DNA of 64,000 bases from Bradyrhizobium sp. CCGUVB1N3 (GTDB lineage: Bacteria; Pseudomonadota; Alphaproteobacteria; Rhizobiales; Xanthobacteraceae), in the NCBI RefSeq assembly GCF_024199925.1, contig NZ_JANADR010000001.1, positions 5,707,501-5,771,500 on the forward strand. The letters are read 5' to 3'. The notes under the pieces were generated by a model. It worked only from the letters and a program-made list of their open reading frames with translations, was not told the DNA's origin and did not search any database. The position numbers and the translations under genes are program-made. Within the stretch, counting starts at the first letter, position 1. Each line of letters begins with the position of its first letter. Shown piece after piece: positions 36,960 through 37,130 of the stretch.

Positions 36960-37117
36960 GGTGCCTGTCCCTGTGATGCGAGGTCTGTTGCCGCAGCCTC
37001 GTGCAACTGTTCAGGTTGGTAATGGAACGGGCGGGAGGCCGAGCCGGCTCACGGCGTCAAGCGCCAAGGACCCAACGGCTTCCCGCCCAACCCATCCTGA
37101 CAGACTTCAAAGACACA
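36960..37117 (-). ncRNA. Predicted IS110 bridge RNA
   Basis: The non-coding left end, read on the minus strand, folds by eye into two internal-loop hairpins. Target loop: stem GGGCGGGA...CCCGCCC (with GCCG/CGGC) enclosing UGGGUCC (37074-37068), a small GGCG-CUUGA-CGCC hairpin, and GAGCCGG (37048-37042). Donor loop: CCUG...CAGG enclosing AACAGUUGC (37011-37003), a CGAGG...CCUCG hairpin, and CACAGGG (36975-36969). UGGGUCC equals the left target flank; CCGGC complements the right flank; AACAGUUGC equals the right element end (9 of 9); CACAGGG complements the left element end (7 of 7). This is the known IS621-type bridge RNA logic. Transcript ends are not determined. Confidence 0.7.
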
Positions 37118-37130
37118 GGGACCCATAAGC
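37118..37130. repeat. Second half of the interrupted family A arm
   Basis: GGGACCCATAAGC continues the arm begun at 35990-36011; together they restore GTCGTCCCGGCGAAGGCCGGGACCCATAA as seen at 41561. Confidence 0.8.

Follow-up and report, generated by a model that had tools for sequence, protein, structure and literature searches.

A complete IS110-group element with a CC core and a predicted bridge RNA in Bradyrhizobium

A complete IS110-group element of 1,108 bp (one core copy counted) lies on the minus strand at 36012-37119 of the window, the 64,000-nucleotide stretch of Bradyrhizobium sp. CCGUVB1N3 DNA analysed here. With high confidence, it is an insertion sequence that works as a bridge-RNA recombinase of the IS621 type. 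Bridge RNAs of this kind are already known (IS621, 2024), and NCBIfam names the protein family RNA-guided. The less expected part of the find is the CC core, the bridge RNA itself having been published before. In the sequences compared, the clade to which the element belongs uses CC in the target as well as in the donor, and the core letters of its guides follow, being GG as against the AG of CT-core relatives.

Results

Element boundaries, copies and target sites

The recombinase gene (36018-36959; this and all other features of the element and its target are given for the minus strand) encodes a 313 aa protein with DEDD RuvC-like and Transposase_20 domains (Pfam PF01548, 61 bits, and PF02371, 66.6 bits). 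The protein falls into NCBIfam NF033542, "IS110 family RNA-guided transposase" (200.4 bits, cut-off 140), and is homologous to the IS621 structure chain 8wt6 (E 4.9e-40) and to ISCro4 (PDB 9t56; E 3e-38). Its catalytic positions are D11, E53, D95, D98, and S234; over the homologue clusters the four acidic columns are conserved in 89/89 and the serine in 87/89. The layout is that of the IS110 group, with a 158-nt non-coding end upstream of the gene and 6 nt between the stop codon and the right core; in the IS1111 group, the longer non-coding end lies downstream of the gene. The neighbours of the element are a gene without a Pfam match on one side and a GIY-YIG gene (37168-37593) on the other. 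The open frame of the GIY-YIG gene adjoins the element and crosses a target repeat at 37473, and the true end of the gene may therefore be earlier.

The genome (10.44 Mb) contains six copies with identical recombinases and identical whole elements, and one further copy at 86%. The six have a common sequence from CCTGTGTC to AACAGTTG, and their flanks differ beyond the target. Since the target is retained up to ...GGGTCCC at the left junction and from CCGG... onwards at the right, both junctions overlap the target by exactly 2 bp, CC. The left core copy is thus at 37118-37119 and the right core copy at 36010-36011. The left target, TGGGTC (37120-37125), was defined from the element's own flank and the clade counts, and the right target, GGCCT (36005-36009, with GGCTC as the perfect match), from the own flank and comparison with the guide. 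Additionally, six of the eight loci matching the joined flanks were read (L327-L332), and in all six the sequence runs across the junction uninterrupted by the element; L327 and L331 equal the joined flanks over the repeat, and the four others differ by a few bases. A complete element with a CC core had been claimed in an earlier, sequence-only reading of this DNA: its ends are confirmed by the six identical copies and the empty sites, and its core by the 2-bp overlap.

The target repeat appears, from its sequence and arrangement, to belong to a REP-like family. After the core, three of the own-genome copies continue CGGCTC, and three, including the window copy, continue CGGCCTTCGCCGGGACGAC. 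There are 163 occurrences of the 10-mer TGGGTCCCGG in the genome, compared with 13 of its reversed control; among the sites listed, many form inverted pairs approximately 79 bp apart. Two such BIME-like inverted pairs, 79 bp apart, are found in the window (28265-28353 and 41578-41666), one member of each pair having one mismatch. The transposase gene itself contains, at 36358-36367, TGGGTCCCGT, which is one base off the element's own target 10-mer.

A search of 265 genomes of the genus gave a match at E 1e-60 in 22 (own genome included), and 71 copies at 75-100% identity were found in 16 genomes. The clade counts below refer to 69 of these copies in 15 genomes, the broken copies L036 (stop codon) and L079 (truncated, with the left flank CTGGGTC-CC) being excluded. 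Other copies were expected at the same type of site, a test set beforehand, and this is what was found: the core is CC on both sides in 69/69 counted copies, the left target is TGGGTC in 65, and the right target starts with GG in 68. The broken copy L036 has a CC core at an unlike site, GAGGT-CC-GCTTC.

Judged by its identical copies, the element appears to have been mobile recently. It is extremely unlikely that the copies are old and dead, and that their shared flanks are repeat regions copied by homologous recombination. The REP-like repeats are abundant (163 sites) and could recombine, and a stop codon breaks two related copies (G250 and one of G011); however, the full 1108 bp is the same in all six copies and the outer flanks diverge past the repeat, empty orthologous sites are found, and none of the six own-genome recombinase frames has an internal stop. 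The element has multiplied recently in this genome.

Other IS110 elements are present in the genus. Five copies in the own genome (L008-L012) belong to another IS110 element, 34% identical, with a longer right end; they are inserted in a third repeat, which ends in TTTGCCCACCCT. A second IS110 group, 39-44% identical, occurs in other Bradyrhizobium genomes (L038-L043, L093-L106), mostly in the repeat TCATC-CT-GAGG, and its guides fit this repeat by eye.

The left end as a putative bridge RNA

The left non-coding end (36960-37117, 158 nt) reads as a bridge RNA, correctly so as far as can be judged from its letters. Folding exceeds chance for the whole left end (z -3.36) and for the target loop (z -3.77), and less so for the donor loop taken by itself (z -1.87, with 8 of 200 shuffles folding equally well). 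A consensus over 14 homologues has three helices, in which 92.5% of cells are paired, compared with 34.9-54.6% when the helices are slid. The helix covariation score and the number of cells with double changes were above all 500 shuffles; no excess over the same shuffles was seen in the number of helix pairs with a double change (equalled in 98/500) or in the number of further pair types (427/500). The predicted form, which agrees with the two hairpins of the sequence-only reading, consists of two internal loops, the target loop first and the donor loop second, each with two guides around a small hairpin; the outer stem of the donor loop is weak. No local hairpin representing a 5' stem-loop before the target loop was found in the single-sequence fold or the 14-sequence consensus, in which the transcript start is not fixed. 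No Rfam family reached its cut-off for the left end; the only low-threshold match, sX15, was on the other strand at 24 bits (cut-off 55) and was rejected.

The predicted target-binding loop (37029-37088; fold and consensus) is bounded by the stem GGGCGGGA/UCCCGCCC and encloses a small hairpin at 37053-37065. The left target guide (LTG), UGGGUCC (37068-37074), is identical over 7 bases to the left flank, up to and including the first C of the core. The right target guide (RTG), GAGCCGG (37044-37050), of which the last GG reads the core, pairs with the right flank of the window copy, CCGGCCT, with one mismatch and one wobble. Because the sites of three of the six own-genome copies (CCGGCTC) match the RTG perfectly, the imperfection at the window copy belongs to the site and not to the guide. 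In the donor loop, the left donor guide (LDG), AACAGUUGC (37003-37011), is identical over 9 bases to the right end of the element. These three guides were found just as they had first been read. For the right donor guide (RDG), a 7-base match had been proposed; comparison with the ends bears out 6 nt, CACAGG (36970-36975), of which GG reads the core. The seventh pair does not stand: its C comes from the flank and is missing in the excised circle, and the G in question is lacking in 3 of the 14 aligned homologues. The small hairpin between the donor guides (36979-37001) has 99% of cells paired in the 14 homologues.

A putative -10-like sequence, CAGGAT (37094-37099), was located by consensus matching. 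In the excised circle, a -35-like box, TTG/CCT, would lie 17 bp from CAGGAT, likewise by consensus match; it would be formed by the right end (36012-36014) and the core plus left end (37117-37119). Among 31 elements, the promoter score of the circle junction is higher than that of the integrated junction in 16, equal in 15, and lower in none.

For transcription, RNA binding, and catalysis we infer a cycle of the following kind. The element would excise as a circle, and the joining of its ends would give a promoter that spans the core. The recombinase would bind the short bridge RNA transcribed from there. The first loop of this RNA would pair with the REP-like repeat TGGGTC-CC-GGCTC and the second with the joined ends of the element, AACAGTTG-CC-TGTG, after which the top strands would be cut after the core and exchanged.

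Guide variation among homologues

Within the 75-100% clade, the LTG TTGGGTCC is present in 69/69 counted copies, and the RTG is GAGCCGG in 60, GATCCGG in 5, AAGCCGG in 3, and AAACCGG in 1. Covariation inside this clade therefore rests on the RTG, the LTG hardly varying there, and the evidence for guide covariation comes mostly from homologues that are approximately 34-55% alike. Over 7 bases, the RTG has no mismatch to its own site in 17 of the 69 copies, one in 27, and two in 25. Elements with a GATCC guide are at GGA sites in 5/5 cases and those with a GAGCC guide in 12/60, all from separate insertion events; the Fisher p of 0.0007 is a rough indication only, because the genomes differ in their repeat make-up and three of the five GATCC elements are from one genome. 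For instance, L007 has the guide GATCCGG and the site GGATC, and the six GAGCC copies of the same genome are at GGA in 0/6 cases.

The wider comparison comprised 31 elements (11 with a CC core and 20 with a CT core), chosen by hand for readable ends after several guides had been inspected. Ends were set from donor motifs or by comparison of copies, the L155/L158 subgroup was excluded, and the best-matching pair for each target and donor was sought over the whole left end. The mean fit to the own target was 12.48 of 14, compared with 10.02 for the targets of others, and the own target was best or tied in 22/31; for donors, the corresponding values were 12.97, 10.98, and 27/31. None of 20,000 permutations reached the own mean for targets or for donors. 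From one homologue to another, guides thus change together with flanks and ends, which was the second test set by the sequence-only reading. The same result (0/20,000) was obtained for both target and donor fit of the CT elements alone and for the target fit of the CC elements alone. The donor fit of the CC elements alone was not significant (1757/20,000), since their ends are nearly alike.

Individual cases can be followed by eye: the RTG AGACCGG of G489 is at CCGGTCT, the LTG GGAATCC of an S. medicae element is at GGAATCC, and the guides of the Pseudomonas psychrophila element (L119) match their own flanks. Convincing target guides could not be read in L155, L158, L221, and L321, which have a CC core and C-rich sites. 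In L155 (G327:C4), the left end is present twice upstream of the gene, approximately 52 bp apart, as if one copy had entered the end of another.

These comparisons bear on whether the protein alone might read the REP-like palindrome, the structured left end being an mRNA leader or regulatory RNA. The site is indeed quasi-palindromic, and the near-constant LTG of the 75-100% clade would agree with such a reading. It is nevertheless very unlikely: across the 31 elements guides fit their own targets better than those of others, a one-letter guide change accompanies a matching change of site, and the homologous IS621 (E 4.9e-40) is reported, in the available part of its description, to need RNA for recombination in vitro (PMC11208160).

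Core usage and a separating protein column

The core was called across homologues from the match between LDG and right end, the target guides being unused. From 356 loci, 29 without a tblastn match, 14 of less than 200 aa, 5 with a short upstream region, and 84 without an end match are outside the core counts; 308 loci passed the length filters and 224 gave a core. These form 93 clusters at 95% identity, which were used because many loci had been fetched twice or were copies within one genome. The core is CC in 28 clusters, CT in 61, and other in 4. The 89-cluster counts leave out the four odd cores (L119 GC, L256 CG, L169 GG, and L173 GC): read by hand, L119 agrees with CT, L256 was CT under an earlier rule, and L169 and L173 are taken as chance end matches.

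The core letters of the guides differ accordingly between the two types. At exact 5-base matches, the RTG core letters are GG in 30/39 and AG in none of the CC-core matches, and AG in 57/69 and GG in none of the CT-core matches; the RTG has no exact match to the five right-target bases in 71/109 CC and 49/111 CT loci. At exact 4-base matches, the RDG core letters are GG in 54/57 CC and AG in 23/24 CT matches; the RDG was read in 116 loci with a single left-junction candidate, automatic reading over a few bases having been unreliable. For IS621 and its orthologues, the available text of the structure paper gives a CT core with an "almost invariant" second T, to which G63 makes a contact through its main-chain amide (PMC11208158). 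Here, the core is CC in 69/69 clade copies and in 28/89 clusters.

Residue 59 of the recombinase (Asp, codon 36783-36785) is the sole column of 305 in which CC and CT clusters have no residue in common. The 28 CC clusters have Asp in 27 and Gly in 1 (L152), and the 61 CT clusters have Glu in 41, His in 19, and Thr in 1. By alignment, the column corresponds to Met66 of IS621 (PDB chain numbers less two), three residues past G63 and six past the catalytic E60. It was first spotted in 61 rows; loci fetched later form 34 clusters, in which Asp occurs with CC in 5/5 and Glu or His with CT in 28/28, one cluster being unreadable. Outside the cluster counts, L306 has Asp and, by hand, a CC core with one guide-end mismatch. 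Column 59 also goes with the donor letter at the third base ahead of the core, Asp and Glu being found with GT and His with GA in 87/89 clusters; the remaining two (Gly and Thr) also have GT. The left donor is thus GA in 19/19 His clusters and GT in all other 70.

On the tree, two core changes suffice, giving at most two independent contrasts, and the AU test does not reject a single origin of CC (p 0.485). The independent-pairs test cannot reach significance on this tree (one supported contrast, two on all branches). The placement of IS621 is unsure (long branch), and a second tree excludes IS621, L190, L172, L122, and L162. Nothing new came from a class search around G743.

Two readings of column 59 were weighed. 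Asp59 is probably a mere family marker of the CC clade with no part in core choice. The CC rows form nearly one clade, with the few contrasts and the AU result given above, and the newly fetched Asp loci resemble two CC branches already seen. Having a separating column is not rare, since other clades of at least 12 rows have 0-4 fully separating columns of their own, and column 59 itself also sets apart a 23-row non-CC clade. Additionally, the contacted core base is described as bound by a main-chain amide (PMC11208158, from the part available). A marker would fit less well with other observations: column 59 alone of 305 shows no overlap between core types, lies three residues past the core-contacting G63, tracks the nested CT rows L154, L185, and L322 (Glu), and kept its association in the later-fetched loci (Asp with CC in 5/5 clusters, Glu or His with CT in 28/28). 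More tentatively, and less likely than not, bridge recombinases of this alphaproteobacterial branch may have changed their core naturally, to CC where others have CT, with the pairing of RTG and RDG rewritten to GG and with Asp at residue 66 (IS621 numbering), next to the core-touching loop. Column 59 might serve as a dial in the protein that sets the choice of core and donor.

Discussion

The element resembles IS621, as far as the available text of PMC11208160 and PMC11208158 goes, in belonging to the IS110 group, in its left-end RNA with target loop before donor loop, in guides that include the core, in a DEDD plus Ser enzyme, in a REP target, and in a promoter-like sequence across the circle junction. 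It differs in its core (CC here, CT in IS621) and in its guide core letters (GG, with AG in the CT-core relatives compared here), and it has Asp where IS621 has Met66. Its left end is 158 nt, compared with the 191-bp LE given for IS621, and a separate 5' stem-loop is absent from the folds made here, for which the transcript start is not fixed. Similarly, the ISEc21 seekRNA system is described, in the portion of PMC11187229 available, as IS110-type with an upstream non-coding region, left-then-right guides, and no added target bases, but it is another element with another target. The ISCro4 bridge recombinase (PDB 9t56) was compared by protein only and is homologous (E 3e-38). Copies of ISPa11, ISPpu9, ISPpu10, and ISRm19 have been reported in REP sequences with 100% association (PMC1525189); REP targeting is thus shared with the present element, and an RNA mechanism is absent from the accessible part of that account.

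A CC-core branch was not found in the open-access literature searched, in which a CC core was searchable only indirectly. From the sequences compared here, a whole and otherwise complete branch appears to do without the near-fixed T of IS621 orthologues. The account of this second-core T in the structure paper suggests, in the part available, a limit to reprogramming (PMC11208158). A CC branch in which the guides and one nearby residue have changed together makes this limit testable by a single exchange. The CC-core recombinase is also a candidate that might not cross-react with CT-core systems, and a protein dial at column 59, if true, would make orthogonal or re-codable cores possible. For the element in its hosts, one guide is seen spreading through several REP types, with a re-aiming by one letter within the same genome.
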